Below are positions 11,468 through 28,387 of a DNA stretch of 62,801 nt, piece after piece. The stretch's first letter is position 1. Each line of letters starts with the position of its first letter. Source of the stretch: a virus; IMG/VR virus record IMGVR_UViG_3300028829_005419, positions 1 to 62,801 of that record; one strand, written 5' to 3'. A model generated the notes under the pieces. It saw nothing but the letters and a program-made list of their open reading frames with translations, had not been told where the DNA came from and made no database searches. The position numbers and the translations under genes were made by a program.

Positions 11468-11476
11468 TATATTGTT

Positions 11477-11809: not shown

Positions 11810-11810
11810 A

Positions 11811-12053: not shown

Positions 12054-12561
12054 AGAAAAGCCGACACCTTATACAACAGTATGCGTCTCAGGAGGCTTTG
12101 ATCCAGTTCATATTGGTCATCTTCGTATGATTAAGGAAGCATCAAAGTTTGGACACGTTACTGTGATCGTTAACTCTGATGATTGGCTAATGAGAAAGAA
12201 GGGATATATCTTTATGCCTTTTGAGGAGCGCTGCGAAATCATCGAAGGCTTTACAGCCACAGCAAAAACTACATATGTAGATGATTCCGATGGTACTGTC
12301 TGCGAAGCGCTTCGCCGTATTAAGCCGGATTATTTTGCTAATGGCGGCGATAGAAAGACCAACAATACACCAGAAATGGATGTATGCGATGAGTTGGACA
12401 TCGAGATGCTTTGGAGTGTTGGAGGCGGAAAAATACAAAGTTCCTCGACACTAGTTTCAGACGCCGGCATGGATCCAACTCCTACCGACGATGAAGACCC
12501 CCAGCCTTCTTTGGTTCAAGTGATTCAATCCGGCGATATACCAAAAACCGGAGAATATTAA
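12046..12561 (+). CDS. Cytidylyltransferase-like nucleotidyltransferase (HldE/TagD type)
   Basis: 171 residues from ATG 12046, which gives a start directly before the domain; a longer frame upstream reads through the preceding gene. GGFDPVHIGH holds the H-x-G-H motif (H22-H25), and KIQSSSTL near residue 130 corresponds to the second nucleotide-binding motif. The length and pattern fit heptose-phosphate adenylyltransferase and glycerol-phosphate cytidylyltransferase relatives. Such enzymes activate sugar phosphates for surface polysaccharides, so it may feed the glycan island a few kilobases downstream. About 30 C-terminal residues after the domain are acidic and of unknown role. Confidence 0.8.
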   Translation: MSKEKPTPYTTVCVSGGFDPVHIGHLRMIKEASKFGHVTVIVNSDDWLMRKKGYIFMPFEERCEIIEGFTATAKTTYVDDSDGTVCEALRRIKPDYFANGGDRKTNNTPEMDVCDELDIEMLWSVGGGKIQSSSTLVSDAGMDPTPTDDEDPQPSLVQVIQSGDIPKTGEY

Positions 12562-12595
12562 AAGCCACACTCTACTTATTACAGATTGGATCGTT

Positions 12596-13915
12596 ATGAG
12601 CCCTAAAAAAATATATGTGTTAGATACAAGCGTTTATCTAACGAATGCAGACGCAATATACGCTTTTAAAACCCACGACATTTATGTTCCTTTAAAAGTA
12701 TTTGAAGAGATCGATAAGCATAAGAAGCGCCAAGATTTAGTTGGCGCTCAGGCAAGAAAAATCATTCGTATTTGGGACGAACTCCGTGATAAGGGTTCTC
12801 TCAAGGAAGGAGTCCTTATCCGTGAAGGTCTTGGACTTATACGATCTGTTTCTGCCTCTGATATAGATAGAGATGATCTTCCACCAGATTTGGATATTAA
12901 GATTCCAGATCATCTTATTATTGCTACGGCAAGAACAGTAGCGAGAGAATCCGAAAGACAAGTAATCCTTGTATCACGCGACATCAATATGCGTGTTATT
13001 GCAGACGCGATTGGGTTGCCTTGTGAAGATTTCCAAAACCAACAAATAGTTGATGATAGCGACTCCATTTACACTGGATTTACAGAGATCCTAGTAGATG
13101 ATGAAATCGTAGATCAGTTCTATGAGAAGGAAGACGTTTATCTTGACGGTGTAAATCTTAAAACAAATGAATATGTAATGCTTATCTCAAACGCAAACGA
13201 GAAAAAGACAGCATTAGGTAGATATTTAAATGATCACACACCCATTCGCAGACTACACAAGGATAAGAAGGGTGTATGGGGAATCAAGCCAAGAAACAAA
13301 GAGCAATCTTTCTTGATTGATGCTTTAATGGACCCGGACATTGAGGTTGTTACAGCCATCGGTAAGGCTGGTAGCGGTAAGACGCTCTGTGCGATTGCTG
13401 CTGCCCTTGAACAGACCTTAGACGACCGTAGCAGCACCTATACTCGTGTAATCGTCTCTCGACCGGTACAGCCGCTTGGAAAGGACATTGGATTCTTGCC
13501 GGGAACAATGGAAGAAAAGATGTCTCCTTGGCTGATGCCTATTCAGGACAACTTACAGACTCTTATGGGGAATGATAAGGTAACTCTTGATATGTATATG
13601 GAACAAGGCACAATCGAGATTGAAGCCATCACTTATATTCGAGGTCGATCGATTGGAAAGGCTTTTATTATCATTGATGAAGCACAAAACTTGACAACTC
13701 ACGAATTAAAGACTATCATTACAAGAGTTGGTGAAGGAACAAAGATTGTGCTAACGGGCGATGTGGAACAGATTGATAATGTTTACATCGATGCTACGAC
13801 AAATGGACTTACTCACGCTGTTGAGAAGTTTAAGAATTTTGAGTTAGCAGCCCACGTAACCTTGCTTAAGGGAGAACGCTCAAGAGTTGCAACCTTCGCC
13901 GCAGAAAACTTATGA
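12596..13915 (+). CDS. phoH: PIN domain-PhoH-like ATPase
   Basis: 439 residues. The N-terminal PIN-type nuclease domain begins VLDTSVYL with D10 and contains VSRDINMRV. The C-terminal PhoH ATPase domain has Walker A GKAGSGKT (residues 256-263), a PVQPLGKDIGFLPG block typical of PhoH, and Walker B FIIIDEAQNL (D361, E362). The fusion matches bacterial YlaK/PhoH2-type proteins, thought to unwind and cut RNA. PhoH genes are frequent in marine phages; a link to phosphate stress is not proven. A 34-nt gap precedes it. Confidence 0.9.
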   Translation: MSPKKIYVLDTSVYLTNADAIYAFKTHDIYVPLKVFEEIDKHKKRQDLVGAQARKIIRIWDELRDKGSLKEGVLIREGLGLIRSVSASDIDRDDLPPDLDIKIPDHLIIATARTVARESERQVILVSRDINMRVIADAIGLPCEDFQNQQIVDDSDSIYTGFTEILVDDEIVDQFYEKEDVYLDGVNLKTNEYVMLISNANEKKTALGRYLNDHTPIRRLHKDKKGVWGIKPRNKEQSFLIDALMDPDIEVVTAIGKAGSGKTLCAIAAALEQTLDDRSSTYTRVIVSRPVQPLGKDIGFLPGTMEEKMSPWLMPIQDNLQTLMGNDKVTLDMYMEQGTIEIEAITYIRGRSIGKAFIIIDEAQNLTTHELKTIITRVGEGTKIVLTGDVEQIDNVYIDATTNGLTHAVEKFKNFELAAHVTLLKGERSRVATFAAENL

Positions 13916-13924
13916 GGTTAAGAA

Positions 13925-14161
13925 ATGGAAAACGAGGCGTTAAGAGAAGTTGTAAGTTCGCAAACAGGACTTAAAGATTTAGTCGTCAACTATATTGGTG
14001 AACGACTAGCAGCAGAGGAAGAGATTACAGTTCATATGGCTGTTGAAGTCTTCGCAGCAGAGTTCCCAGAGTTTTTGATGGCTATTGCCGAAGAGAACTT
14101 TTTACGAGGATATGAGCAGGCTCTAAATGATATAGAGCAGATGGAAAAGAAGAATGTTTAA
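13925..14161 (+). CDS. Small acidic hypothetical protein
   Basis: 78 residues, about one quarter Glu/Asp, probably all helical (LKDLVVNYIGERLAAEEE). No family recognised. Its last codons overlap the start of the peptidase gene, so the two are likely translated together. Confidence 0.55.
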   Translation: MENEALREVVSSQTGLKDLVVNYIGERLAAEEEITVHMAVEVFAAEFPEFLMAIAEENFLRGYEQALNDIEQMEKKNV

Positions 14162-14780
14162 CAGAGAATATTACATTCATAATATTCCTGTTTTTGTATT
14201 TGGGGAAACAGAACCCCAAGTTGATATTCCGCTTTTCTGTAATCAAATAGAAGAACTGTTGCCGAGAGCAGTTCTACAAAATGTTGATGTTTGTTATATC
14301 TCGGAAAATCCAAAGTTAGATGGTCGCAACGCTGCTTATAACGACGGTGCGATTTATATGAAGTTAGATGAGCCTACAAACGAGGATATGATTGAGAACT
14401 TTGTTCACGAAGCCGCTCACGCTGCCGAGGTTGTAGATCCTAACTTTATTTATGATGATAGTTTGGTAGCCGAGTTTGCTGGAAAGAGAAGGCGTCTTTA
14501 TCATCTTCTTAATGCTGCTGGGTTCGATCAAGTGCCGCAGAGAAGATATGAGTATTTAGAATACAACGAGGCATTTGATAACTTTTTATCGGATGTAGTT
14601 GGGTATCCTACTTTGTTGTCTATAACAATGGGGCTATTTTGCTCACCATATGGAGCAACCTCTATTCAAGAGTATTTTGCTAACGGATTTGAGAAATACT
14701 TTACAGAGAGCCCACAGTATCTTAGAAAGATAAGCCCGGTGCTATACCAGAAAGTCGAAGCAGTCCTGAATGGCCGATAA
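14154..14780 (+). CDS. Predicted zinc metallopeptidase (HEAAH)
   Basis: 208 residues. FVHEAAHAAEV contains HExxH (H85-H89). A later IQEYFANGFEKYF provides a likely third ligand, in the style of anthrax-lethal-factor-like and related zincins (E-x-F-A-x-x-F). No signal peptide or membrane segment is present, so it should act inside the host or virion. It has no capsid leader. The physiological target is unknown. It overlaps the genes on both sides by about 8-11 nt. Confidence 0.65.
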   Translation: MFNREYYIHNIPVFVFGETEPQVDIPLFCNQIEELLPRAVLQNVDVCYISENPKLDGRNAAYNDGAIYMKLDEPTNEDMIENFVHEAAHAAEVVDPNFIYDDSLVAEFAGKRRRLYHLLNAAGFDQVPQRRYEYLEYNEAFDNFLSDVVGYPTLLSITMGLFCSPYGATSIQEYFANGFEKYFTESPQYLRKISPVLYQKVEAVLNGR

Positions 14781-15555
14781 TAAGAAAACACATATCTCAT
14801 ATTCCGAACTAAAAGACTGGGCACACTGCCCCCACTATCACAAAAAGAACTGGATCGAAAAGGTTGCCTCATTTGAGGGCAACGAATATACCGCATTCGG
14901 CACTGCTATTCACGACGTATGTGAAAAGAAACTTCTTCGCGAGAACATTGATGAAGAAAAAGTATTCCAGATTGGCTTCGATCAAGAACTACAAAAACTT
15001 GCTGAAAAGAACGTTGAAGTAAACAATAAGAATATTGTCCAGATGCGCACAGCAGGACCAGCAATCCTAGCAGAAGTAGAAGACGCACTAGACGACTACT
15101 TTGGCGACTATGAGGTTTACTCTTCCGAAGAACTCTTATATGAAGAGATAGAAAACTTTGGTTATAACTTTAAAGGATTCGTTGATGCGGTAGTGAAGGT
15201 AGGGGACAAATACCATATCTTTGATTGGAAGACTTGCTCTTGGGGCTGGGATTCAAGAAAGAAAGCAGAGAAGTTAGTAACATACCAGTTAACTTTATAC
15301 AAGCACTTCTTCTGCCAGAAGCATAAGTTAGACCCCAAAGATGTAGAGACACACTTTGCTTTATTAAAGAGAACAGCAAAAAGTAAAAGAGTTGAGATTT
15401 TTAGAGTTACTAGTGGACCTAAAAAAACTGAAAATGCTCTTAAACTTTTGTATCAGGCGATATACAATATTAAAACTGGTTTCACAATCAAGAATAGACT
15501 GAACTGTTCGAAGCCATATCCCTGTTCTCTCCGGAATACAGAACATTGTAGATAG
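14770..15555 (+). CDS. PD-(D/E)xK nuclease, Cas4/RecB-like
   Basis: 261 residues. The nuclease core is GFVDAVVK (D139) and YHIFDWKT (D152, K154). The N-terminal YSELKDWAHCPH is the usual start of Cas4/AddB-type domains. Four cysteines, one in HCPH near residue 18 and three at the C-terminus (NCSKPYPCSLRNTEHC), could bind a 4Fe-4S cluster as in Cas4 and AddB. No cas genes or CRISPR repeats are nearby, so it is best seen as a phage recombination or end-processing nuclease. Confidence 0.85.
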   Translation: MADNKKTHISYSELKDWAHCPHYHKKNWIEKVASFEGNEYTAFGTAIHDVCEKKLLRENIDEEKVFQIGFDQELQKLAEKNVEVNNKNIVQMRTAGPAILAEVEDALDDYFGDYEVYSSEELLYEEIENFGYNFKGFVDAVVKVGDKYHIFDWKTCSWGWDSRKKAEKLVTYQLTLYKHFFCQKHKLDPKDVETHFALLKRTAKSKRVEIFRVTSGPKKTENALKLLYQAIYNIKTGFTIKNRLNCSKPYPCSLRNTEHCR

Positions 15556-15563
15556 GAAACTAA

Positions 15564-16814
15564 ATGTCAGAGAAGATTAAGATCTTTACTATCAGTGACC
15601 ACCCACTGTCCCCAAGCGGTGTTGGAACTCAAACAAAATATATGATCGAAGGAATGCTTAAAACTGGTAAATACCAGTTTGTTTCTTTTGGTGGTGCCGT
15701 AAAGCACCCAAATCATGACCCCCAGCATCTTGAAGAGTGGGGAGAAGATTGGGTTATATGGCCTGTTGATGGATACGGTAATCCAGATATGGTCCGCGCA
15801 ATGATCAAGCAGCAAAAGCCTGATATTCTGTGGTTTATGACCGATCCTAGGTTCTATGGATGGCTTTGGAACATCGAGAACGAAATTAGAGCCAATGTTC
15901 CAATGGTTTATTACCATGTTTGGGACAACTATCCTTATCCTACCTATAACCGTAAGTTCTATCTATCCAATGATCACGTTGCTTGTATATCAAAGCTTAC
16001 TCACGATATTGTCGAGACAGTAGCACCAGAGGTTGATTCTTCTTATATCCCTCACGCAGTTGACGGCGAGATCTTTAAGCCTCTTGAAAAGGACGACATT
16101 CTTAAATGGAGACAACAGAAGAATCTAGATAATAAGTTTGTATGTTTCTGGAATAGCAGAAATGCTCGCCGCAAACAATCAGGCACTTTAATCTGGTGGT
16201 TTAAAGACTTCCTAGATAAGGTTGGCCACGAGAATGCGTGCTTGATTATGCACACTGATGTAAAGGATCAGCACGGACAAGACTTGGAAGCGATTATCCA
16301 CGAACTTGGATTAACAGAAGGACAAGTTTTGTTTTCCAGAGAAAAGGTCAATGCGAGAGATCTCGCACTGATGTATAACATTGCGGATGTAACAGCGTGT
16401 ATCTCTGATGCCGAAGGGTTTGGTCTTTCAACGTTAGAATCACTATCTTGCGGAACTCCCATCTTAGTTAATATGACGGGCGGATTACAGGATCAAGTAA
16501 CTGACGGAGAGCAGTTCTTTGGAATAGGATTAAACCCGGTTTCAAAGGCAATCATTGGATCTCAGCAGGTTCCATTTATTCACGAAGATCGTCTAAGTAA
16601 AGATGACTTTGTTAATGCTATGGTTGAACTATATGAGATGGGCGATGAGAAGAGAACAGAACTCGGCGCCAAGGGAAGAGCTTGGACACAAGATCGTTTT
16701 AACTTTGATAAGTATGTTCAAAGATGGGATGAGTTGTTTACTTCAATCCACGAAGAAAAGGGTTCTTGGGAAGACCGTGAAGGTTACAATGCATACGAAG
16801 TGAGGGTATTTTAA
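15564..16814 (+). CDS. Glycosyltransferase, GT4-like (GT-B)
   Basis: 416 residues. N-terminal SGVGTQTKYMIEGML is the glycine-rich acceptor-side loop, and the C-terminal domain has ISDAEGFGLSTLESLSCGTPI, the E-x-G-F-G-L-x-x-L-E nucleotide-sugar signature of GT4 enzymes. It is the first gene of the glycan island and shares its last base with the start of the next glycosyltransferase (TAATG). The donor sugar cannot be told from sequence. Confidence 0.85.
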   Translation: MSEKIKIFTISDHPLSPSGVGTQTKYMIEGMLKTGKYQFVSFGGAVKHPNHDPQHLEEWGEDWVIWPVDGYGNPDMVRAMIKQQKPDILWFMTDPRFYGWLWNIENEIRANVPMVYYHVWDNYPYPTYNRKFYLSNDHVACISKLTHDIVETVAPEVDSSYIPHAVDGEIFKPLEKDDILKWRQQKNLDNKFVCFWNSRNARRKQSGTLIWWFKDFLDKVGHENACLIMHTDVKDQHGQDLEAIIHELGLTEGQVLFSREKVNARDLALMYNIADVTACISDAEGFGLSTLESLSCGTPILVNMTGGLQDQVTDGEQFFGIGLNPVSKAIIGSQQVPFIHEDRLSKDDFVNAMVELYEMGDEKRTELGAKGRAWTQDRFNFDKYVQRWDELFTSIHEEKGSWEDREGYNAYEVRVF

Positions 16815-18097
16815 TGTTAAAAAAAGTATTAATCAAAGGACCAATCCTATCTCGATCAGGATATGGCGAGCAATCACGATTTGCTCTGCGCTCACTACGT
16901 TCAAGACCAGATTTATTTGATATTTATATCGTCAATATTGCCTGGGGAGGCACCGGGCAGATAACAAATATTGATGAAGAAACTAACTTTATCAACGAGT
17001 GTCTCATTAAGACGCAGGTTCATGTACAGCAAAAAGGACAGTTTGATATATCAGTACAAGTCACAGTACCAAACGAGTTTGAAAAGATTGCGCCTGTAAA
17101 CATTGGTTATACTGCCGGCATTGAAACAACAAAAGTAGCACCACAGTGGATCCAAAAGTCAAACGATAATGTAGACAAGTTGATTGTTGTATCAAATCAC
17201 TCCAAGAATGTGTTTGAGCAGACAACTTATGATGTGAAAGACCAACATGGAAATGAGATCAAAGGCTGGGGACTACAGGTTCCAGTAGAAACAGTTAACT
17301 ATCCGGTTAGAGAGTTTGAACCAGAAGAAGTTAACATTGATTTTAAGACGGACAAGAACTTTCTTGTGGTATCACAGTGGGGCCCTAGAAAGAATCTAGA
17401 GAACACAGTTAAGTGGTTTGTCGAGACGTTCAGAGATGAGGAGGATGTAGGTCTTGTATTAAAGACAAACACAGCATCTGATTCTATAATGGATCGAGAG
17501 TTAACACAGAAGCGCCTAGAACATCTTTTAAAGGCTTTTGGTGAGCGCAAGTGCTCGGTATATCTAATCCACGGCGAAGTGTCTCCTGGGAACCTAGCGT
17601 GGCTCTACGAGCACCCTACAATGAAAGCTTTGATTAATATTGGTCACGGTGAAGGGTATGGGCTTCCTTTGTTTGAAGCTGCTTATCACGGTTTGCCTCT
17701 TATCACGACAGCTTGGTCTGGCCAAATGGACTTTATTTGTAAGCCAAACAAGAAAGGCAAGCAAGTTCCAAGAATCGTTAGAGTTGACTATGATGTAAAT
17801 CAAGTTCAAAAGTCTGCTGTTTGGAATGGAGTAATCCAAGCTGATTCAAAGTGGGCATTCGCTCGCGAGAACTCTTACAAGCGCGCTCTAACAGAGTGTC
17901 TGGAAAAGGAGACTCACTATCGTAATGAAGCTGAGGGTTTAAAGAACTACATCCGCGAGAACTTTACGAATGAAAAAGTTTATGCCGATTTCGTTAATAA
18001 CGTTTTGGGATCTGCGGCCGCCGCAAAGAAAAACAATGACCAAGTAGCGCTGGAAGAATCAGCAATGCTTGCAGCGCTAGGAAGTCTGCAAGCGTGA
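16814..18097 (+). CDS. Glycosyltransferase, GT4-like (GT-B)
   Basis: 427 residues. The N-terminus SRSGYGEQSRFAL resembles the acceptor-side loop, and GHGEGYGLPLFEAAYHGLPLI is the donor-binding signature. LVVSQWGPRKNLENTVKWF marks the start of the second Rossmann domain. It is related in layout, though not closely in sequence, to the gene before it; the pair may add successive sugars. The last codons overlap the next gene by 4 nt. Confidence 0.85.
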   Translation: MLKKVLIKGPILSRSGYGEQSRFALRSLRSRPDLFDIYIVNIAWGGTGQITNIDEETNFINECLIKTQVHVQQKGQFDISVQVTVPNEFEKIAPVNIGYTAGIETTKVAPQWIQKSNDNVDKLIVVSNHSKNVFEQTTYDVKDQHGNEIKGWGLQVPVETVNYPVREFEPEEVNIDFKTDKNFLVVSQWGPRKNLENTVKWFVETFRDEEDVGLVLKTNTASDSIMDRELTQKRLEHLLKAFGERKCSVYLIHGEVSPGNLAWLYEHPTMKALINIGHGEGYGLPLFEAAYHGLPLITTAWSGQMDFICKPNKKGKQVPRIVRVDYDVNQVQKSAVWNGVIQADSKWAFARENSYKRALTECLEKETHYRNEAEGLKNYIRENFTNEKVYADFVNNVLGSAAAAKKNNDQVALEESAMLAALGSLQA

Positions 18098-18762
18098 GAA
18101 TAGGAATTGTTCAAATCACCTCTGAATTTAACAGCAATGAGCATCCACGGCTTAAGCTTTTGAGAGATGAAATCATTCCGACTTTTTTGAATACTGTCGG
18201 AGGTGAAAAATACACTCTTGTTTCGCCACCAAATAAAGAACTACAGGCGCTTGTAGAAAGCGGTGGAGGAACTTTTGTGGAGTATACGGGGTGGAAGAAG
18301 GATAAGTCTAGAAAGTTCCGCGAAGGCATGCAGACCCGCTCGGAGCAGTGGGTAGCGTTTTTGGATGACGATATTCTTCCCGATACAGATTGGCTAGAAA
18401 GATCATCTGAGTTTCTTTCTACGACAGTCCCGGGACAATATGGATTCCGCTTAACGGATGCAGACGACAATAGACACGAGTTTGGTGAAGATTGGATGCA
18501 ATTTGCTAGCCCTCGATCTGGTTTAAGACACAGAGGACTTCGATATGATATAAACTCGAACTACATTGAAGAATCACCCACTTCTTATGTTGCTAACTCT
18601 TTTGTCCATAAAGAAGTTTATAGTATGGTTCAACCATTTGGTATTTTCGGAAAAGCACCTGATGTTAGTTGGAGTTTTGCGATCAAAGAAGCAGGATTTC
18701 CAGTGGGATTCATACTTCAAGCAAGAGCATATCATCTTGGAGACAGGAAAGATAATAGATAA
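18094..18762 (+). CDS. Glycosyltransferase, GT2-like (GT-A)
   Basis: 222 residues. WVAFLDDDILPDTDW carries the metal-binding acidic cluster (D91-D93) of inverting GT-A enzymes, and the later SYVANSFVHKEVY and FGKAPDVSWSFAIKEAG resemble the acceptor-side block. It is short for a GT2 enzyme but appears complete. It overlaps the previous gene by 4 nt and is followed after two bases by the next. Confidence 0.7.
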   Translation: MRIGIVQITSEFNSNEHPRLKLLRDEIIPTFLNTVGGEKYTLVSPPNKELQALVESGGGTFVEYTGWKKDKSRKFREGMQTRSEQWVAFLDDDILPDTDWLERSSEFLSTTVPGQYGFRLTDADDNRHEFGEDWMQFASPRSGLRHRGLRYDINSNYIEESPTSYVANSFVHKEVYSMVQPFGIFGKAPDVSWSFAIKEAGFPVGFILQARAYHLGDRKDNR

Positions 18763-18764
18763 AA

Positions 18765-19433
18765 ATGATAAGTCGAGTAGTTGTGTGCGGATCAAAGCCG
18801 TATTTAAACGTTGATTTTGATCCTCTTGCAGACTCAATGCAAATTATAGTCAGAAATAACATGTTATTGCCAGGAGATGGTTATGGGGATAGAGAGTCAG
18901 ACTATCAAGTTTTAAACTCACATGTCTTCAATCATTATAAAAGTGATGCTCCATTAGAGAAATGGATTTCCTTTTATCATAAAAAGTATAAAATGCCGAT
19001 AAAGCATTTAAGTCGATTCAAAAAATACATAACAGAATCCACCAAAACACAGTTTGTAAACTTTCACAATAATAACATTGAAGTTTTTAGAAATCATTTA
19101 GCAAAAAATAATATTAATCTTAAACTGGTAAAAGAGCTGAGATGTGGGTTCTCATTTATTGGAGAATGCTTAAAGGCTCAAAAGATACCGATCTTAATAG
19201 GATTTTCTTTAATAGAGCAAGATTTTAGCCGTCATGCCTACAACAGACATAGCTCCGGAGCATGTCATGATAAAAATCAAGAAATAAAGATGCTAAAGTT
19301 ACTGCACGAAAGGGGAGAAATAGACGCTTCTTTTTGTGCTTTGAGGGATGAAAAAGGTTTTGTGTTTGACACAGAGATTCTTAAACCCACTGAAGCTTCA
19401 AAACAAATCCTTAAAGAAGTGTATAATCTTTAA
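18765..19433 (+). CDS. Unknown glycan-cluster protein, possible sialyltransferase-like
   Basis: 222 residues. The beginning VVCGSKPYL and the following VRNNMLL resemble the nucleotide-binding start of CMP-sialic-acid-using transferases (V-G-N-S-P ... R-x-N). The C-terminal half has an unusual His/Cys-rich block, SGACHDKNQEIKMLKLLHERG. The resemblance is faint, and no family is assigned. A CMP-sugar-using enzyme would fit the CMP-sugar synthetase at 22065. Confidence 0.35.
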   Translation: MISRVVVCGSKPYLNVDFDPLADSMQIIVRNNMLLPGDGYGDRESDYQVLNSHVFNHYKSDAPLEKWISFYHKKYKMPIKHLSRFKKYITESTKTQFVNFHNNNIEVFRNHLAKNNINLKLVKELRCGFSFIGECLKAQKIPILIGFSLIEQDFSRHAYNRHSSGACHDKNQEIKMLKLLHERGEIDASFCALRDEKGFVFDTEILKPTEASKQILKEVYNL

Positions 19434-19442
19434 AGTAAAATA

Positions 19443-19778
19443 ATGAAAATATTTGTAGATATTGATGAAACGATTTGTCGCACACCCGGCGATAAGAGCA
19501 AAGCAAGAGACTATTCAACAGCAGTTCCGATAAACGATAACATTAAAGCTGTAAATGAATACTATGACGCAGGCCATGAAATAACATACTGGACAGCACG
19601 CGGTACAGTGAGTGGTATAGATTGGCATGATATAACAAAGTTTCAACTTGAGAAATGGGGAGCGAAGCATCACAATCTAATATTAGGGAAGCCGGCTTAT
19701 GATCTATACATTGATGATAAATCTATTAATACAAGAACATGGGAGGAGAGTGAAGAATGCTTAGAAGAACTGTTGTAG
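19443..19778 (+). CDS. Small HAD-superfamily phosphatase
   Basis: 111 residues. Motif I is FVDIDETIC (D6, D8), followed by TYWTARGT (motif II) and LYIDDKSI (acidic motif IV). This fits the short HAD phosphatases seen in capsule and LPS clusters. In this setting it could remove the phosphate from the KdsA product, the step of KdsC, although it is shorter than KdsC and the match is only functional. It overlaps the aldolase gene by 22 nt. Confidence 0.75.
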   Translation: MKIFVDIDETICRTPGDKSKARDYSTAVPINDNIKAVNEYYDAGHEITYWTARGTVSGIDWHDITKFQLEKWGAKHHNLILGKPAYDLYIDDKSINTRTWEESEECLEELL

Positions 19779-20623
19779 GAATCCCAGCTTCATATTCTGA
19801 AGACCAAAGTCTAGAAACCGAATCAACCATTAGGTACCTATCTTATCTGGAAGATGAAGGAGTTCACACGGTCATGTCGACAGCTGGAACATCTCATTTT
19901 AATCTTCTTAATATTGACGAAATACATGCTTTAAATAAGGTTGTGTCCAACTCCTTTAAGGGAAATAAGATTATAGGAGTCCCCGCGTTATCAAATCGCG
20001 ATGCTGTAGCTTTTATTGAGAAAGCAAATGATTATATAGATAGTTCCTGCAGGCTAATGCTCTTATATCCTGAAAGATACTATAGCGAGGATGAGATTAT
20101 TGATTACATGTCAAACCTTCGTAGCCATACGAACAATAAGATATACATTCACGGGAAAACGATAAGAAATGCCTCCGGAGGCAACTGGGATTATAATGCG
20201 TCTGTAATCAATAAGTTGTATAACCTCGGGACCCTGCAGGGTATAAAAGAAGAGCACTCTAACTTAAGCAAGTCTTATGATTTTGTTAGTGAAATTCATC
20301 CCGAAGTGGATGTGATTGTGGCTGGTGGAAGCATGCGCCGATATGAATATTTACAGTCAGCCGGCGCCAATAGTTTTCTATCAGGTGTTGGTAACCTTTT
20401 TCCGAAAATAGAACAATCTTACTTAGATGGGGTACTGGCTAAAAAATCATTAGATAAAGAAAAACAACTATTTAGTGTGTTTATGAAGCATGGATGGCAC
20501 AAATCATTGCGTATAGCTCTAAAATATTTAGATCTAACATGTTACTATGATCGAAAGCCCTGGCCCACAACTTCTGCACTAGAAGAAGAAGCCATCAAGC
20601 AAATAGTGGAGAAGATAAGATGA
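19757..20623 (+). CDS. DapA/NanA-family aldolase or lyase
   Basis: 288 residues, the usual size of the family. The barrel shows GIPASYSEDQSLE near the start, STAGTSHFNLLNIDE corresponding to the G-[ST]-T-G-E block, and QGIKEEHSNL with the Schiff-base lysine at K164. The usual G-E-x-x-x-L after the threonine block is altered (TSHFNLLN). Members split or form ulosonic acids, for example N-acetylneuraminate lyase, or act in lysine synthesis. The neighbours favour a sugar-acid substrate. It overlaps the next gene by 4 nt. Confidence 0.75.
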   Translation: MLRRTVVGIPASYSEDQSLETESTIRYLSYLEDEGVHTVMSTAGTSHFNLLNIDEIHALNKVVSNSFKGNKIIGVPALSNRDAVAFIEKANDYIDSSCRLMLLYPERYYSEDEIIDYMSNLRSHTNNKIYIHGKTIRNASGGNWDYNASVINKLYNLGTLQGIKEEHSNLSKSYDFVSEIHPEVDVIVAGGSMRRYEYLQSAGANSFLSGVGNLFPKIEQSYLDGVLAKKSLDKEKQLFSVFMKHGWHKSLRIALKYLDLTCYYDRKPWPTTSALEEEAIKQIVEKIR

Positions 20624-21390
20624 CAAATAAGATATGGATTTTGGGACCTTGTGCAATGGAAACCCGCGATATGTTTTTGGAAACAGCAGCGGCGATTAAC
20701 AAGGTTATGGATGATACCGATGAATGGTATATGAAAGCTAGCTTTGATAAAGCAAACAGAACTTCACTTCATGGCGCCCGCGGCCCAGGAATGGATTACG
20801 CCTCATCGGTTTGGCAGGAGGCTAAGGAACAGTTTCCAAACATGAAATTTATTACGGACGTACATGAGACCAATCAAGTCGAGAGACTAGTTGGACTAAT
20901 AGACGTTATACAGATTCCAGCCTTTTTATGCCGTCAAACTGATTTGATTGTTGAGTGCGCTAGGCACTTTGATAAGATTAATGTTAAAAAAGGACAGTGG
21001 CTTGGTCCTAATAATTTGATTAAATCAGTTGATAAGATTAAGGAAACAAATCCTGACTGTGAAGCATGGATTTGTGATCGTGGAACTAATTTTGGATACC
21101 ATGATTTGTTTGTTAACTTTGGTATCGTAGATGAATTAAAAGCCCACTATGATCGAGTTATTTTGGATTGTACCCACGCCATTCAGAGGTCACGTCAGGT
21201 GTATGGAACACAGGGCGATCGAAATCTCGCAGAGCGGTATTTTGTTGCAGCAGATATTTTTAACTATGATGGCGTTTTTGCTGAGGTTCATCCACAGCCA
21301 GAATGCGCAATATCAGATGGAGATTGTCAGCTAAAGTTGTCTGATCTTGAAGCATTGGTTGGTAGGGCAAAGGCAATAGGGAATGTCTAA
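20620..21390 (+). CDS. kdsA: 3-deoxy-8-phosphooctulonate synthase (KDO-8-P synthase)
   Basis: 256 residues, somewhat shorter than E. coli KdsA. It shows the hallmark blocks in order: KASFDKANRTS, GPGM, FITDVHE, IQIPAFLCRQTDL, INVKKGQ, CDRGTNFGY, DCTHAIQ and EVHPQPE. It condenses phosphoenolpyruvate with arabinose 5-phosphate, or a similar aldose phosphate. GPCAME puts a cysteine at residue 11, the metal ligand of the metal-dependent class (as in Aquifex), with H in DCTHA and E and D in EVHPQPECAISDGD as the other ligands. The classic Kdo pathway would continue through the HAD phosphatase at 19443 and the CMP-transferase at 22065. A 4-nt overlap on the 5' side and an 8-nt overlap on the 3' side suggest one operon. 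Confidence 0.9.
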   Translation: MTNKIWILGPCAMETRDMFLETAAAINKVMDDTDEWYMKASFDKANRTSLHGARGPGMDYASSVWQEAKEQFPNMKFITDVHETNQVERLVGLIDVIQIPAFLCRQTDLIVECARHFDKINVKKGQWLGPNNLIKSVDKIKETNPDCEAWICDRGTNFGYHDLFVNFGIVDELKAHYDRVILDCTHAIQRSRQVYGTQGDRNLAERYFVAADIFNYDGVFAEVHPQPECAISDGDCQLKLSDLEALVGRAKAIGNV

Positions 21391-22072
21391 GTATAACTTT
21401 TCTTTTAAAGAAGAGTCTCCTGTCAAGAGTCTCACCAGTCGGTGGGAAAAGGTCAGTTCAGATCATCGCCATTTAACCCGTCGCGATGCTGTAGTAAAGA
21501 ACGAGCAGATCATCAAGGAGGCTCTAGAATGCATTGGTCCTATAAACTATTCTACTATTGTTGATTGGGGCCCCGGCGGGGGTTTCATTTCTAAATCCAT
21601 ATTGCCCGAGACGGTGCATTATTACGATATTGTTGCATCCCACGAACCTTTATTGCGCGAACTCAATTCACCGACGATCTCGGATATTAATTTCCATCTT
21701 GTACCAGAGGATGTGTCCCAACTAGAAGGAAAAGTTACTAACCCAGATCTGCTGATAGCATATTCAGTTATTTATCACATGCCCGGGCTAGAATATGTAA
21801 ATAAGGTAGCACACTTCTGGAATACAATAATGTGCCCTAAGACGATCGCTATTAGAAACATGTTTAGTGCAGGCAAATCTTGGGAGAGGGAATCAGACGA
21901 GTATTATCGCTCATCAAACTACATAAGAGGAAATCTATACAACCTACAGGATTTTCTTTCGTTGTTTACAAACTATGAATTGGTTTACAAGAAAGATTTA
22001 CCTGTAAGGGCACAGAATATCTCCAATATCTCACAGAGAGATATTAGTCTGGTTTTAACAAGAAATGACTAA
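21383..22072 (+). CDS. SAM-dependent methyltransferase
   Basis: 229 residues. VDWGPGGGFISKSI is motif I of class I methyltransferases, and LLIAYSVIYHMPGLE fits motif IV to post-IV. It may methylate the sugar or a glycan end, to judge from its position between KdsA and the CMP-sugar synthetase. The acceptor is unknown. Overlaps of about 8 nt at both ends. Confidence 0.7.
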   Translation: MSKYNFSFKEESPVKSLTSRWEKVSSDHRHLTRRDAVVKNEQIIKEALECIGPINYSTIVDWGPGGGFISKSILPETVHYYDIVASHEPLLRELNSPTISDINFHLVPEDVSQLEGKVTNPDLLIAYSVIYHMPGLEYVNKVAHFWNTIMCPKTIAIRNMFSAGKSWERESDEYYRSSNYIRGNLYNLQDFLSLFTNYELVYKKDLPVRAQNISNISQRDISLVLTRND

Positions 22073-22760
22073 AAGTTTAGCTGTAATACCCGCCCGCGGC
22101 GGTAGCACCAGACTTAAAGATAAAAATGTTTATCCCCTCGCTGGAAAACCTCTTATACGATGGATGACCGAAGCCGTAGTAGAATCAGGATGTTTTGATC
22201 AGATATTGATTTCTACGGATTCGGATGCTATCTATGATGCTGTATCTGATTTGCCGGTAGAGAGACATTCGCGCCCACCAGAGCATGCAACGGTACAGGC
22301 AACAGCATTAAATGCCATGCTGGATTTAATGGAGAGTGTTGAGGATCCGTCTAATATATTTGCTTATTTTCTCCCTACTTGCCCGTTTGTAAGTTCGGAA
22401 GACATAAAGAATGGATACAAGGTGCTTTTTGATCGATCCGTGGATACAGTCATTAGCATGACTCAGGTTCCGGAGACTATACAACTGGCTTGCAACATGA
22501 AAGATGGCTGGGTGATGCCTATCTTTGATAATCTAGAGGCTGGGCTTACCAATAGCAAATTCATCAAAAAATATTACAAGCCATCTGGGGCTTTCTATAT
22601 GGGGCACTGGAATCGCATATTAGAACAGAGAAACTTCTTTAAAGGTAATGTTAAGGGTGTCCTCATTCCACCAGAGAGGTCTGTGGACATCAACACTTTA
22701 GAAGATATTAAATATGCGGAAAGCATACGGAATAACTTTATTACGGCATCGACGCGCTAG
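22065..22760 (+). CDS. CMP-sugar (acylneuraminate/Kdo-type) cytidylyltransferase
   Basis: 231 residues. VIPARGGSTRLKDKN (residues 7-21) is the CTP-binding motif, PLAGKPLIRW and ISTDSDAIY follow as in NeuA, and FYMGHWNRI and VDINTLEDI close the domain. It activates a ulosonic acid with CMP. The G-G-S form is nearer to NeuA than to KdsB, so the product may be a sialic-like sugar or Kdo derivative. Together with the KdsA homologue it suggests a phage-encoded CMP-ulosonate route. Confidence 0.85.
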   Translation: MTKSLAVIPARGGSTRLKDKNVYPLAGKPLIRWMTEAVVESGCFDQILISTDSDAIYDAVSDLPVERHSRPPEHATVQATALNAMLDLMESVEDPSNIFAYFLPTCPFVSSEDIKNGYKVLFDRSVDTVISMTQVPETIQLACNMKDGWVMPIFDNLEAGLTNSKFIKKYYKPSGAFYMGHWNRILEQRNFFKGNVKGVLIPPERSVDINTLEDIKYAESIRNNFITASTR

Positions 22761-22795
22761 GTTGTTGTAGAAAATAAGAGATAGGAGAGGGAAAA

Positions 22796-23677
22796 ATGAA
22801 ATATCTAGCAATTGACTCACTAGCGCGCAGCGGAACAACTCTTTTGAGTTCGTTGATAAACTCCCAAGAGCGGTGTGCCACATTTATTGGAAACTTTGCT
22901 GAGCCATGGCATGTCGATGGACGCCCGTCGAGGACGATAGATAGTGCCTATAAGCCTATTGCGACTACTGGCAAAACTAAAATAAATATTGATCGTTACA
23001 AAAAAGAGATTTTAAAAATATTTAAGAGCCGACCACGATTAAACGCTGGTAAAACAGTGAAAGAGTGGTCTGATTTATTTGATAAGAAGGATCATCAAAC
23101 ATTTGATGAGTTGTATAACGAAGTTGCTGCGCATTACAATGCTGAGGTTATTGGGTTTCGATGGAATCAGTGTTTATACTATGCGCCTCTGTGGCTTGGT
23201 CGTTCGCCTGATCACTATTGGGTACTACCAATTAGAAATCCTTTAGATCGCATTGTGTCTAACAAGAAGACCCACAATGTACATTTTAACGAAGCATATC
23301 AGATAACCGCTGAGTTAGATCAGAAGTACCAGAGGCTGATTGAGCAATACCCTAACAATATTGTAATCGTTTATTATGAAGACTTAGTATCTGATCCGGT
23401 AACAACGTTGAAAGAATTTTTTGATAAAATCGATTACCCCCTAAGAGATATAGAAACACAAAATATTGTGGGATCAAATGATAAGCCGTATCGAAATCAG
23501 GGCTGGCGCGTTAAGGAAAAAAAAGGTGGTAGTCACACGCAAGGGGAAAAATTTACCAGTCTTTACAGCACCTCTATAGGTCAGTACAAAGAATTTTTAA
23601 GTAAAACCGAAATAGCGCAGACGATTGATTTGATGCGACGAACAGAACTTTTTAGGCGCTACCTAGACGAAGAATAG
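22796..23677 (+). CDS. Sulfotransferase
   Basis: 293 residues. LARSGTTLLSSLI (R11-S12-G13-T14-T15) is the 5'-phosphosulfate-binding loop, and LPIRNPLDRIVSN is the 3'-phosphate-binding block. Both bind PAPS. It probably adds sulfate to a sugar or lipid of the surface glycan. A good AGGAGAGG ribosome site is present in the 35-nt gap before it. Confidence 0.85.
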   Translation: MKYLAIDSLARSGTTLLSSLINSQERCATFIGNFAEPWHVDGRPSRTIDSAYKPIATTGKTKINIDRYKKEILKIFKSRPRLNAGKTVKEWSDLFDKKDHQTFDELYNEVAAHYNAEVIGFRWNQCLYYAPLWLGRSPDHYWVLPIRNPLDRIVSNKKTHNVHFNEAYQITAELDQKYQRLIEQYPNNIVIVYYEDLVSDPVTTLKEFFDKIDYPLRDIETQNIVGSNDKPYRNQGWRVKEKKGGSHTQGEKFTSLYSTSIGQYKEFLSKTEIAQTIDLMRRTELFRRYLDEE

Positions 23678-23686
23678 GATTAGAGC

Positions 23687-24604
23687 ATGTTTAAGAAAAT
23701 AAGGGCGCGTTATGCCATAAGGGCGTTCGGAAGAGATAAATTTCCTCAAAAGCCGCGCCACGAAATAACACCAAATGATATAATACAAAACTTTACCAAA
23801 ACAACTTTGGTTGGCGAGGACACCAAGGTTAGTTCTATTGGTTCGTGCTTTGCGGAAGAAATACTTATTTGGCTGAACCAGAATAATTTCAACACGGTCC
23901 AGCCAGGATGGGGTATGGTTTACAATCCTCGTAATATTAAACTAATAGTAAAAGCTGCACTAGAGTATGAAACATTTGCCCCTTCTGAGAGATTGTGGGA
24001 TTTTGGCGATGGAGATATAAGAACACCGTATATTAAATGCCAATCATTGCAGCCCATGTTTCTCGGGTCGAACGAAAGCGCGGCGCTGAAGAAAGAGGAA
24101 GCGGTATTTCAAAAATTTGCTAGTGTATTAAAGAATATAGATCTTCTTATCATTACGCTAGGACAAACAGAGTATTGGTATTCTGATGGCGATAAGGAAT
24201 ATCCTTTCTACGCAGCGCCCTGGGCAGGCATCGAGGGAGGAAAAGAAAAACATAGATCTTCAAATCTAACTCAATCTGAGGTGTGCTCTGATTTGCGGGA
24301 GACAATAGAACTGCTTAAGAAGCATAACTCAGATCTTAAGATACTAGTTTCAGTATCACCGGTTCCCTTAGTTGCTTCAACTCAAAAGGGATTGAGTGCT
24401 TATGTGTACGCTGGCGCCGCTAAATCATCACTTCACAGTGCTGTTATGGAAGTGGTATCGGATAGTGAGGATGTATTTTATATGCCCTCATATGAAATAG
24501 TTATGGCTGAGCCGCAGAATTCCTTTAAAGATGATGGTCGTCATGTATTAAGGGCTACAGTTGATAAGATCATGAATACATTTAGAGAGCTATATGTTTC
24601 ATGA
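23687..24604 (+). CDS. GSCFA-domain protein
   Basis: 305 residues. SIGSCFAEEI is the signature of the GSCFA family, followed by GWGMVYNPRNI and a later LLIITLGQTEYW. The family is related to GDSL/SGNH hydrolases and occurs in polysaccharide gene sets. The exact reaction is not known; esterase or acyl-transfer activity on a glycan is a reasonable guess. It overlaps the dioxygenase gene by 4 nt. Confidence 0.8.
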   Translation: MFKKIRARYAIRAFGRDKFPQKPRHEITPNDIIQNFTKTTLVGEDTKVSSIGSCFAEEILIWLNQNNFNTVQPGWGMVYNPRNIKLIVKAALEYETFAPSERLWDFGDGDIRTPYIKCQSLQPMFLGSNESAALKKEEAVFQKFASVLKNIDLLIITLGQTEYWYSDGDKEYPFYAAPWAGIEGGKEKHRSSNLTQSEVCSDLRETIELLKKHNSDLKILVSVSPVPLVASTQKGLSAYVYAGAAKSSLHSAVMEVVSDSEDVFYMPSYEIVMAEPQNSFKDDGRHVLRATVDKIMNTFRELYVS

Positions 24605-25284
24605 TTAAAACTTTTACTAAAGACGCATCTACGGAAGAAATGTACGAAGCAGCGCTCGAAGATGGTGTCTTTTTAATAGAGAGATATTTGGAAGGTGAGC
24701 CCCTAGAAGCCCTCCGCAAAGAGGTCCTAAGACAACTCAGAATAAAGGGAATCAACTACAGGCCCGGTCGCGCCCTCCGAGGAAGCCATCTAAAGGCTTA
24801 TGGCAATAATAACGCGATAAGACAGGTCTTCTCGGAGAAATGGATGTACGAGCTTTACCTGATGATTACTGGCGGCGAAGACAGAGGGTATGGAAAAAGT
24901 ATATATGCGAACCACGACTACCTCATGAGCGCCGAACTAGAACGAAATGGCTGGTTGCATTTTGACAGAAACAGTTGCTGGAAGTATTTTGTCTACTTAA
25001 GTGATATCGAAAAAGATGGAGGAGCTTTTAGTATTGTCCCCGGCAGTCACAAGATAGGAAAGACTCTGCATACAGAAGCTTGGAAACTTACCAAGTATTA
25101 TAATGATGTGAAAAATAGAATAGAGATTGATTACCCTGAAATATATGAGAACATTGCGGTCACTCCCATTGAGATGCCTGCTGGAACTTTAATCGCCTTT
25201 GACACAAATTGTTTTCATCGAGGTGGGCTTGTTCTTAAAGAAGGCAAAGAAAGGTTAGTTGTTAGATTAAACAATTTTAAATAA
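24601..25284 (+). CDS. PhyH-type Fe(II)/2-oxoglutarate dioxygenase
   Basis: 227 residues. The facial triad is visible as H120-x-D122 in GWLHFDRN and H206 in DTNCFHRGG, and VPGSHKIGK is the usual loop before the second half. ERLVVRLNN supplies the arginine for 2-oxoglutarate. The family hydroxylates small molecules or sugars. In this position it may decorate the glycan or its lipid or sugar building block. Confidence 0.85.
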   Translation: MIKTFTKDASTEEMYEAALEDGVFLIERYLEGEPLEALRKEVLRQLRIKGINYRPGRALRGSHLKAYGNNNAIRQVFSEKWMYELYLMITGGEDRGYGKSIYANHDYLMSAELERNGWLHFDRNSCWKYFVYLSDIEKDGGAFSIVPGSHKIGKTLHTEAWKLTKYYNDVKNRIEIDYPEIYENIAVTPIEMPAGTLIAFDTNCFHRGGLVLKEGKERLVVRLNNFK

Positions 25285-25300
25285 TAGAAAGATCGAGAAA

Positions 25301-25882
25301 ATGAGTGAAGAGATATACCAAAAAAGAATAAATAAGTTATTGAGCTTCGTCTCGGATATCCCCGGGGATGTGATTGAAGTTGGTATTTTTAAGGGAAAAA
25401 CATCCGAGATTGTATGCAAATACTTACAGTCTGAATCGAATTCCAAAAGGTACATTGGTTTGGATACATTTAATGGTTATCAAGAAGAAGATATGGTTGA
25501 TGTTAATACCGCGGCCAGAAGAAACCACACTTCAAAACGTTGGCATTGTTCTAAGCAAAGTGTGGAAAAAAGATTGAGTTTTTTTGATAGAAAGCGACTT
25601 TCTATTATAGAGGGAGATTGTAAGGTAAAAATACCTCAATTAATAGAAAAAGGAGTACTGCAGTTACTTTCGCTGATCTATATTGATTGTAATCTTTATA
25701 TTCCATCGTTAAAGGCTATGGAAGATTTGTGGCCATTATTGTCAAGTGGTGGTATTTTAGCGATTGACGAGCACTTGGTGGGTGGAGAAACAAAAGCCAT
25801 AAAAGAATTTGCACTTAAAAATAATTTAGTTTTAAAGTATTATGGTGATTCACCTGGACCAAGTTACTACATTTTAAAGTAA
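25301..25882 (+). CDS. TylF-like O-methyltransferase
   Basis: 193 residues. VIEVGIFKGKTSEIV is motif I, YIGLDTFNGY motif II, and LIYIDCNLYIPSLKAMEDLWPLLSSGG the later motifs, as in macrocin-O-methyltransferase (TylF). The chain is shorter than most TylF enzymes because it lacks much of the N-terminal extension. A sugar hydroxyl is the expected acceptor. The ribosome site GATCGAG lies in a 16-nt gap. Confidence 0.8.
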   Translation: MSEEIYQKRINKLLSFVSDIPGDVIEVGIFKGKTSEIVCKYLQSESNSKRYIGLDTFNGYQEEDMVDVNTAARRNHTSKRWHCSKQSVEKRLSFFDRKRLSIIEGDCKVKIPQLIEKGVLQLLSLIYIDCNLYIPSLKAMEDLWPLLSSGGILAIDEHLVGGETKAIKEFALKNNLVLKYYGDSPGPSYYILK

Positions 25883-25938
25883 AGTAAGAAGAAGATATTA
25901 TCCTGGGTAATTTAGTTTAGAATAGATTTAAATAAGTT

Positions 25939-26772
25939 ATGCAAATAGGAATTATTGGAAATGGATTTGTTGGAAGGGCATTATATGAGGGTTTTAGAGA
26001 CTCCTATGAAGTGTATGTTTATGATAATGATCCTCTTAGGACTCTCAATACATTAGAAGACATTAATAGATTAAACTTAATTTTTGTATGTGTGCCTACA
26101 CCTATGTCACTCTCTGGAAAGATAGAAACCTCTATCTTAAAGAACGTCTTAAATAAGCTTAAAAAAGACAAGGTAGTGGTGATCAAGTCAACGATCACAC
26201 CAGCGGCCGCCCAGGAGATAATAAAAGAATATCCCGATCAATATTTTGTATTTAATCCGGAGTTTCTAACAGAAAGAACAGCTGTTGAGGATTTTAAAAA
26301 TCCGAGCAGGATAGTCCTTGGGGGAGAAACAGAAGCAGTTGCCGTAGTTAAAAGCATGTATCTCTCAATATTCCCAGAGGTAGAGTATATTGAAACAGAT
26401 GCCAAGACAGCATGCTTCATAAAGTATATGTCTAACTGTTTTTCTGCAATAAAGATATCTGCTATGAATGAGTTTAGACAGATTGCCGATAAAGACGGCA
26501 TTGATTGGGGTCAAGCATTAAAAGGGTTTCTAGCATCGGGATGGGTTAATCCCATGCACACGATGGTCCCGGGTCCAGACGGTAAACTAGGATTTGGCGG
26601 TAAATGCTTTCCAAAAGACATAAACGCAGTTATAGCATATGCAGAGAGTGTCTCTGTCGATTCTGTACTATTAAAAGCATCATGGGAAAAAAATCTAGAA
26701 GTTCGACAAGAGAAGGACTGGCTAAAAATACCGGGCGCCGTATCATTTACAAGCAAAGAATCACAATCTTAA
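25939..26772 (+). CDS. Short UDP-glucose/GDP-mannose dehydrogenase-like protein
   Basis: 277 residues. IGIIGNGFVGRAL is the NAD-binding loop, VCVPTPM follows, and KLGFGGKCFPKD holds the catalytic cysteine C223. Family members are usually 400 residues or longer. This one ends soon after the active-site region and lacks the C-terminal UDP-binding domain, so it either works with a different partner or is a naturally compact form. It probably oxidises a nucleotide sugar to a uronic acid. It is the last glycan gene. Confidence 0.8.
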   Translation: MQIGIIGNGFVGRALYEGFRDSYEVYVYDNDPLRTLNTLEDINRLNLIFVCVPTPMSLSGKIETSILKNVLNKLKKDKVVVIKSTITPAAAQEIIKEYPDQYFVFNPEFLTERTAVEDFKNPSRIVLGGETEAVAVVKSMYLSIFPEVEYIETDAKTACFIKYMSNCFSAIKISAMNEFRQIADKDGIDWGQALKGFLASGWVNPMHTMVPGPDGKLGFGGKCFPKDINAVIAYAESVSVDSVLLKASWEKNLEVRQEKDWLKIPGAVSFTSKESQS

Positions 26773-26785: not shown

Positions 26786-26983
26786 ATGAAACTATCAAAC
26801 CAAGCAGTAGGAGCCCTAATGATGGCTCTCCAAAGATCATTAATGGAACAAACTGATATTGTTCCTGTCTTACGAGAGATGAACCTTCAAGTAAATCCAG
26901 AAGATCCATCTCAGTCAGAGTTGGTAGTAACTAATCCACCAACGATTAACTTTGATACAGTTGAACTAAACGAGGAAGGATAA
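26786..26983 (+). CDS. Small conserved-looking hypothetical protein
   Basis: 65 residues behind a good AAGGAG site. The N-terminal half is helical (NQAVGALMMALQRSLMEQ) and the rest polar, ending FDTVELNEEG. Its type is common in T4-like marine phages, but no function is known to me. It opens a group of small overlapping genes leading to the late sigma factor. Confidence 0.6.
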   Translation: MKLSNQAVGALMMALQRSLMEQTDIVPVLREMNLQVNPEDPSQSELVVTNPPTINFDTVELNEEG

Positions 26984-27397: not shown

Positions 27398-27765
27398 TGC
27401 TCACGTATATAATCTTAACAAGCTCTCTAATCGCCAATGCTTTGCTGCTGTGGTATGTGGTTAGATTGTTGCGTAAGTTTATCTTTATTTCTGAGAACTT
27501 ATCTGATTTGTTTTTAACAACAAAAGCATTCCAAGTATTTTCTAAGGATATGTATAGTATGAACTCGTATCACGGAGAACCTGTGATACAAGAACTTATT
27601 ACAAGAATCAGAGAAGTTAACGATGAGATCTCAAACTTTAGAGAGATATTCGAACATACAATAGATGAAGAGCTAGAACAAGAACTAGAGGAAGCACTAA
27701 ATGCCGAGGAAGAAGAGCAAGAAAAATCATTACTTTACGCAGGTACACGAAGACGCGATAGTTAA
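27397..27765 (+). CDS. Small membrane-anchored acidic protein
   Basis: 122 residues from ATG 27397, one base overlapping the previous stop; a TTG three bases earlier is less likely. An N-terminal membrane segment (about residues 2-22) is followed by a helical domain and a very acidic tail (EELEQELEEALNAEEEEQE). The tail overlaps the sigma-factor gene by 65 nt in another frame. Function unknown. Confidence 0.5.
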   Translation: MLTYIILTSSLIANALLLWYVVRLLRKFIFISENLSDLFLTTKAFQVFSKDMYSMNSYHGEPVIQELITRIREVNDEISNFREIFEHTIDEELEQELEEALNAEEEEQEKSLLYAGTRRRDS

Positions 27766-28387
27766 ATACGCATCGACAACAGATTACGAACTAAGGTCCA
27801 AGTTATACGAAGAGTATATACAGCCTGCCTTTGAACAGATGGTCGATAAGATTATTTATACTTATCGTTTCACAACACTGCCGAATATTGATTATTTAAG
27901 AGCAGACTGTAAGGTCTGGCTTACAACTATACTAAACAAGTATGATCCAAATAAAGGCTCAAAAGCTTTTTCATATTTCTCGGTTGTAACTAAAAACTGG
28001 TTTATTCATAAGATCAAGAGAACAAAGAAGCGCCTTAGAACAGAGGTGTTTATGGAAGACGTTCTAAATGAGTTAGACGAAGATTTAGTTTCAGACGAAC
28101 CAACCTATTATGAGAAGCGATCAGAGATAGAGTTTTGGAGATCTCTTAATACAGAGATCGATACTTGGGACTCTTTCATGATCAAAGAAAACGAGAAAAA
28201 AGTTCTTATGGCTGTTCGTATTCTTTTAGACTCTGCTGAACAAATAGAAATTTTCAACAAAAAGGCTATTTACTTATACCTTCGCGAACTTACTGGATTG
28301 AATACCAAACAGGTAGTCAATAATCTTAATAAACTTCGTAAGAGATATAGGACGTTTAAAGTAAAATGGGAAAACAGCGAGATTTAA
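27701..28387 (+). CDS. Late-transcription sigma factor, gp55-like
   Basis: 228 residues. DPNKGSKAFSYFSVVTKNWFIHKIKR matches region 2 of T4 gp55-like sigma factors, and YLRADCKVWLTTILNKY precedes it. A basic N-terminus (PRKKSKKNH) and a long helical C-terminal part follow the usual plan. It should direct the host polymerase to late promoters for the structural genes downstream. The gene overlaps both neighbours, by 65 and 22 nt. A sliding-clamp-binding end was not recognised. Confidence 0.75.
   Translation: MPRKKSKKNHYFTQVHEDAIVKYASTTDYELRSKLYEEYIQPAFEQMVDKIIYTYRFTTLPNIDYLRADCKVWLTTILNKYDPNKGSKAFSYFSVVTKNWFIHKIKRTKKRLRTEVFMEDVLNELDEDLVSDEPTYYEKRSEIEFWRSLNTEIDTWDSFMIKENEKKVLMAVRILLDSAEQIEIFNKKAIYLYLRELTGLNTKQVVNNLNKLRKRYRTFKVKWENSEI

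Follow-up and report, generated by a model that had tools for sequence, protein, structure and literature searches.

In this study, we analysed a 62.8-kb linear virus record (IMG/VR record IMGVR_UViG_3300028829_005419, 62,801 nt; hereafter the window), a fragment without head genes, and found that its run of sugar genes at 15564-26772 consists of two parts with different histories. The first is a pair of GT4-type glycosyltransferase (GT) genes, GT4a and GT4b, which belongs to the core of the phage clade; the second is a cassette of glycan genes that is replaced as a block within a single slot. The reading that we favour, with a probability of about 0.6, is that this is a swappable glycan-type locus of lytic, distantly T4-like and mostly uncultivated phages, serving to glycosylate a virion protein in the cytoplasm.

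A single slot with sharp breakpoints

Related loci were fetched by means of the upstream nuclease (80 loci) and the downstream late sigma factor (57 loci), and about 130 loci were compared. Where both ends were joined, the gene order was nuclease, GT4a, GT4b, variable stretch, p65, Zn-ribbon, p123 and sigma, with p65 not being recognised in the most distant of the joined contigs. The distance from nuclease to sigma was 11.4 to 20.8 kb, with a longer stretch in four contigs, and the variation covered the whole interval from GT4b to p65.

The sister record IMGVR 3300023278_002646 and the window have 96-97% identity over positions 5105-17973 on the left, with one small gap, a region at 10155-10753 that is missing from this otherwise 96% identical record. 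The sister is again 96-97% identical over positions 26771-60539 on the right, an unbroken 33.8 kb that takes in tail genes, those of the baseplate among them. No DNA similarity exists between these junctions, the interval being 8.8 kb in the window and 15.8 kb in the sister. In nearly all pairs of contigs that do not share a cassette, similarity on the left ended 50-200 nt before the GT4b stop codon, while in some pairs aligning over GT4b it ran through, that is, the cassette was shared. On the right, 165 of 196 pairwise similarities started between -25 and +50 nt from the p65 start, at its ribosome-binding site/start codon. These data demonstrate a single slot with sharp breakpoints, in which blocks are replaced by recombination. 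A first-pass annotation of the window, made without database searches, had proposed a hypervariable slot between nuclease/PhoH and late sigma genes and a comparison with related phages at these junctions. The comparison bore out such a slot, with the same junctions recurring around a variable interior, but not its start at 15564; the real slot is 17,974-26,770 and begins within the second GT gene.

A constant pair of glycosyltransferases

GT4a was found downstream of the nuclease in 77 of the 80 loci and GT4b in 76, and in the three loci without GT4a the contig stops shortly after the nuclease. Nearly all relatives with room at this place carry the pair, and the first-pass statement that such a density of sugar genes is rare in a phage therefore does not hold for this clade. 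The divergence of the pair tracks that of the nuclease/backbone (Mantel r 0.90 for GT4a and 0.82 for GT4b). The EX7E motif is kept in 76 of 76 contigs for GT4a and in 73 of 76 for GT4b; phage-encoded glycosyltransferases with an intact catalytic motif, a mark of virion glycosylation systems, are thus present. The pair also occurs in the cultivated phages immuto (Flavobacterium), Mel-JY01 (Microcystis) and RM378 (Rhodothermus). In immuto and Mel-JY01, the order is nuclease-GT4a-GT4b, with one small gene between the nuclease and GT4a and a sugar island behind. RM378 has GT4a and GT4b adjacent to each other and no island, a ribonucleotide reductase coming next. These results demonstrate that GT4a/GT4b is a vertically inherited part of the clade core that lies outside the variable slot. 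Given that the transferases are kept in phages of three host phyla (Bacteroidota, Rhodothermota and Cyanobacteria), their target is more likely to be something shared by the phages than the host envelopes.

Since terminase, portal, gp21, gp23 and sheath are common to immuto, Mel-JY01, RM378 and a 165-kb relative of the window (G006), these four phages belong to a single, distantly T4-like clade. Few genes occur in every one of them, and GT4a is one of these. Homologues of gp17, gp20, gp21, gp23 and gp18 are all present in G006; the window, being a fragment without head genes, could not show them, and it shares the baseplate, sigma, nuclease and GT pair with immuto, Mel-JY01 and RM378. A megablast search of the phages collection gave no match.

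Turnover and selection of the cassette

The 830 ORFs (open reading frames) of the islands fell into 353 gene clusters, the commonest families among the cluster representatives being epimerases, GT2, aminotransferases, cupins, methyltransferases, cytidylyltransferases and NeuB. The gene content of the cassette changes more quickly than the backbone does: 88% of island clusters were shared at nuclease identities of at least 99% and 17% at 95-99%, and 83% of the pairs in the latter range shared no island cluster at all.

In contig 3300025687_005582, seven cassette genes of the window (GT2, the ORF at 18765-19433, HAD, aldolase, KdsA, CMP-synthetase and GSCFA) recur at 89-95% protein identity. The synonymous divergence (dS) of shared cassette genes was 0.30-0.79, with the exception of KdsA (1.7), compared with about 1.5 for nuclease and sigma, which means that the block moved between backbones that had already diverged. 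The ratio of nonsynonymous to synonymous divergence (dN/dS) was 0.02-0.11, which shows purifying selection. Taken together, these substitution patterns demonstrate that cassettes move horizontally and that their genes are under purifying selection. Bacterial-type genes that vary between contigs might also be transient host genes or an assembly chimera without function. However, identical junctions recur in dozens of contigs, which rules out chimeric assembly as well as host genes with a phage-unrelated flank and confirms that the genes are truly phage-borne, as the first-pass annotation had assumed. The low dN/dS values speak against this explanation too, as does the fact that isolated phages are arranged in this way, and so does KdsA, whose closest bacterial relatives in a profile scan were only about 36-43% identical and spread over many phyla. 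It is refuted for the locus as a whole, and we give it practically no weight. A first scan of genome contigs with KdsA revealed no recent host donor of this gene.

The window has KdsA, a HAD phosphatase and a CMP-synthetase, which together make up a soluble ulosonic acid pathway with activation by cytidine monophosphate (CMP). NeuB was found in 14 of 50 related contigs and PF01973, a Maf-type domain family that includes flagellin transferases, in nine; Pfam scans found neither in the window. Their occurrence in the relatives fits cytoplasmic protein glycosylation. The cassettes are also a rich and so far unused source of soluble enzymes for glycan synthesis and modification, some of which, such as KdsA, are distant from the bacterial ones.

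Searches for export, integration and DNA-modification functions

None of the 830 island ORFs had two or more predicted membrane helices, and the same was true of the 23 proteins encoded in the immuto and Mel-JY01 islands; in the Escherichia coli O16 locus, used as a control, Wzy had six and Wzx nine helices. Profile searches for the initiating transferase, flippase and polymerase families (PF02397, PF01943 and PF04932) found each in 0 of 50 contigs, with 9 to 13 of 14 control genomes being positive. ABC transporter models were not searched singly, and export of this kind is excluded by the helix count only. Integrase (PF00589) was detected in none of 12 records, including eight contigs of 148-191 kb and three complete genomes, the window being a fragment. 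Thus neither the polytopic enzyme nor the integrase of serotype-conversion clusters (gtrABC, oac or wzy type) was found.

It is possible that the enzymes act on the host surface, redirecting O-antigen/capsule assembly so as to block competing phages or disguise the infected cell. The genes are of the lipopolysaccharide (LPS)/capsule type, soluble transferases could work on lipid-linked intermediates of the host, and published readings of marine-phage genes agree (PMC7029224; PMC5332604). However, as no cassette gene serves export and the 50 contigs lack all three export-line families, the host would have to lend the whole export line. The lysogenic advantage that is usually invoked falls away because no integrase was found, which makes long-lasting conversion unlikely. 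Moreover, phages of three host phyla with different envelopes have all kept the GT pair, and the cassette was replaced while the structural module remained 96-97% identical. We therefore regard host-surface remodelling, the customary reading of such genes, as doubtful, although it is the strongest of the alternatives. The choice between host and virion had been left undecided in the first-pass annotation. Given the conserved pair and the lack of polytopic proteins, export families and integrase, the evidence presented here favours the virion, which is probably the target of the glycan.

Another explanation is glycosylation of phage DNA, or production of a small metabolite, as an escape from host nucleases. 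The locus adjoins nuclease and replication genes, and phage transferases able to act on DNA exist in T4. However, PF00303 (thymidylate synthase/dCMP hydroxymethylase), the one base-modification route looked for, was absent from the window, the eight contigs of 148-191 kb, Mel-JY01 and RM378, immuto being the sole exception among the records scanned, which argues against T4-type DNA glucosylation. The combination of a GT pair with sulfotransferase, GSCFA, PhyH, epimerase and CMP-sugar genes is also unlike a DNA-modification set, and we consider this explanation very improbable.

Genes of the island

The island comprises 14 ORFs that share the + strand, some neighbours overlapping by 1, 4, 22, 4, 8, 8 and 4 nt (Table 1), exactly the co-directional, overlapping arrangement first described. 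Family searches supported the earlier labels of KdsA, HAD phosphatase, DHDPS-family aldolase and CMP-sugar synthetase, and Pfam matches those of sulfotransferase, GSCFA protein and PhyH dioxygenase. Other labels were upheld in part. Of three clear and one possible glycosyltransferase, GT4 was recovered twice and a GT2-like protein weakly, and the possible one (18765-19433) had no family match. Of two methyltransferases, the TylF type stood, while the ORF at 21383-22072 had RrnaAD as its best match (E=0.14), which gives the label no support. The nucleotide-sugar dehydrogenase belongs to the family named but lacks the C-terminal domain; equally short forms are present in related islands, suggesting that the gene is not simply broken. 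The EcbF-like HAD phosphatase is likewise found in many related islands.

Table 1. Features of the glycan locus of the window and its flanks
Feature	Position	Strand	Support
PD-(D/E)XK nuclease, conserved left flank	14770..15555	+	PF12705 4.6e-14
GT4a, core GT4-type glycosyltransferase, outside the swapped cassette	15564..16814	+	PF00534 2.7e-14
GT4b, second core GT4-type glycosyltransferase; 3' end is the left exchange zone	16814..18097	+	PF00534 2.6e-5
Swapped glycan cassette	17974..26770	+	Sister phage has a 15.8-kb cassette without DNA similarity to it
GT2-like glycosyltransferase (weak)	18094..18762	+	PF00535 9e-5, slightly under cut-off
Protein without family match, candidate CMP-ulosonic-acid transferase	18765..19433	+	Co-occurrence with KdsA
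HAD phosphatase, EcbF-like	19443..19778	+	phrog_1238 2.9e-26; TIGR01689 9e-6
DHDPS/NanA/KDG-type aldolase	19757..20623	+	PF00701 5.3e-12; keto-deoxy-acid aldolase models
KdsA, 3-deoxy-D-manno-octulosonate (KDO)-8-phosphate synthase	20620..21390	+	PRK05198 1e-73 (above cut-off); Aquifex-type KDO8P synthase 1fwn 1e-51
ORF without family above cut-off; methyltransferase reading unproven	21383..22072	+	
CMP-ulosonic-acid synthetase (PseF/NeuA/KdsB-like)	22065..22760	+	PF02348 2.3e-23; TIGR03584 5.8e-37; NeuA 9ftb 5.7e-27
Sulfotransferase family 3 (Sulfotransfer_3)	22796..23677	+	PF13469 2.3e-11
GSCFA family protein	23687..24604	+	PF08885 7.5e-41
PhyH-type dioxygenase	24601..25284	+	PF05721 6.3e-11
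TylF-type O-methyltransferase	25301..25882	+	PF05711 6.6e-13
Nucleoside diphosphate (NDP)-sugar dehydrogenase, N-terminal and central domains only	25939..26772	+	PF03721 2.8e-18; PF00984 6.2e-17
p65, conserved right flank; ribosome-binding site/start codon is the right exchange point	26786..26983	+	
Late sigma factor, right flank	27701..28387	+	phrog_234 6.6e-7

Searches of Pfam, PHROGs, NCBIfam and PDB gave no match for the ORF at 18765-19433, and its AlphaFold model, which is poor (predicted local distance difference test score 51), gave none in a Foldseek search. A possible resemblance of its N-terminus to sialyltransferase-like proteins received no support from Pfam and PDB profiles. Homologues of this ORF were found in three phage islands only, two of them closely related; a further search of viral contigs returned known loci only, and no homologue was found among 80 bacterial KdsA neighbourhoods. 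Because all three islands carry KdsA, this protein is perhaps a CMP-ulosonic-acid transferase.

A proposed model for glycosylation of the particle

No flippase, polymerase, initiating lipid-linked transferase or polytopic protein was found in the cassettes, and assembly in the cytoplasm directly on protein is therefore the most likely route. We propose that the constant part, GT4a and GT4b, would prime a conserved virion protein, and that the adjoining slot, exchanged as a block, would contribute sugar-nucleotide synthesis, extra transferases and sulfate, methyl or other decoration. In the phage of the window, KdsA or the aldolase most likely produces a KDO- or nonulosonate-like acid sugar, which would pass through the HAD phosphatase and the CMP-synthetase to a transferase, perhaps the ORF at 18765-19433. 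The acid sugar would then be joined to a short glycan and be sulfated and methylated. By extending and decorating the glycan in this manner, the cassette may set the 'serotype' of the particle. There is about an even chance that this applies clade-wide, with the ancestral pair priming a conserved virion protein and the exchanged cassette setting the glycan type. If so, the sugar coats of virions would differ completely even where their proteins are nearly the same. If the virion does carry the glycan, typing by proteins overlooks the principal variable surface of these phages, and they would undergo serotype switching like their hosts.

Several points weigh against this model. The host might lend lipid-carrier initiation, flippase and polymerase, so the missing export genes are not decisive. 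The hydropathy scan is crude, and one control fragment, wzxC, was void because it was read out of frame. The transferase role of the ORF at 18765-19433 leans on co-occurrence in three islands, of which two are closely related. The timing of expression gets no help from the T4-type late promoter TATAAATA, which is not enriched (5 matches compared with 5.7 expected).

The Ser/Thr content of the structural ORFs gave no decisive signal for the acceptor. Two adjoining virion-module proteins, at 57066-58112 and 58145-59353, are rich in Ser/Thr (20-23%) and are both related to the same place in RM378, and the first has a weak Ig-domain match. They are possible surface proteins and glycan acceptors.

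Relation to known systems

The locus resembles bacterial O-antigen/capsule (Wzx/Wzy) loci in its constant flanks, in the block replacement of sugar-nucleotide, transferase and decoration genes, and in the exchange of cassettes between near-identical backbones, but it lies in a lytic phage and no Wzx, Wzy, initiating transferase or polytopic protein was found. With flagellin glycosylation islands (NeuB/PseI, CMP-synthetase and Maf) it shares soluble, cytoplasmic nonulosonate pathways, NeuB and PF01973 being present in relatives; unlike them, it lies in a phage and has a GT4 pair as its anchor, and the window has KdsA instead of NeuB/PF01973. Mycobacteriophages with virion glycosylation carry few transferases, whereas here a replaceable cassette of roughly 7-17 kb is found clade-wide. 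Their system (Freeman 2023, as cited in PMC10955285 and PMC12894461) is similar, so far as those citing papers relate it, in that phage-encoded glycosyltransferases act without export genes.

LPS-type clusters of pelagimyophages have been read as a means of host-surface change (PMC7029224), and a marine T4-like genome with KdsA, NeuA, WaaG, Gmd, WcaG and ManC has been reported (PMC5332604). These clusters contain the same kinds of genes in hypervariable regions of T4-like marine phages, and they are presented as host-recognition clusters or auxiliary genes; the sections dealing with them do not mention a GT pair that is conserved, breakpoints that are fixed, exchange of whole blocks or missing export genes. 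The hypervariable region of prasinoviruses (PMC12906663) is also flanked by core genes, occurs in marine viruses and carries glycosyltransferases for which capsid glycosylation has been proposed, but these are eukaryotic algal viruses with an unrelated genome, and capsid and adhesion genes lie in their hypervariable region as well. It is already known that marine phages can carry LPS-type genes and that phage virions can be glycosylated. A clade-wide, swappable glycan cassette with fixed junctions on a core GT pair was not found in the literature searched, which was incomplete, and we make no claim of priority. For lytic marine phages, the old question of whether LPS-type genes target the host or the particle can now be addressed in the cultured phages immuto, Mel-JY01 and RM378.

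Other features of the window

The window carries a complete phage-borne transfer-messenger RNA (tmRNA) gene at 8733-9046 with the tag ANEADYGLALAA, and six tRNA genes lie nearby at 10957-11467; no host could be assigned from the tmRNA and the six tRNAs. A weak peptidase M90 match was found at 14154-14780, directly upstream of the nuclease. The structural module includes a 2942-aa protein (40985-49813) without PHROG match, whose homologue in G006 is 4325 aa. The protein encoded at 59369-60790 contains C-terminal tandem repeats of the type 'WYLNGKLHREDGPA', and the repeat DNA yields self-matches.

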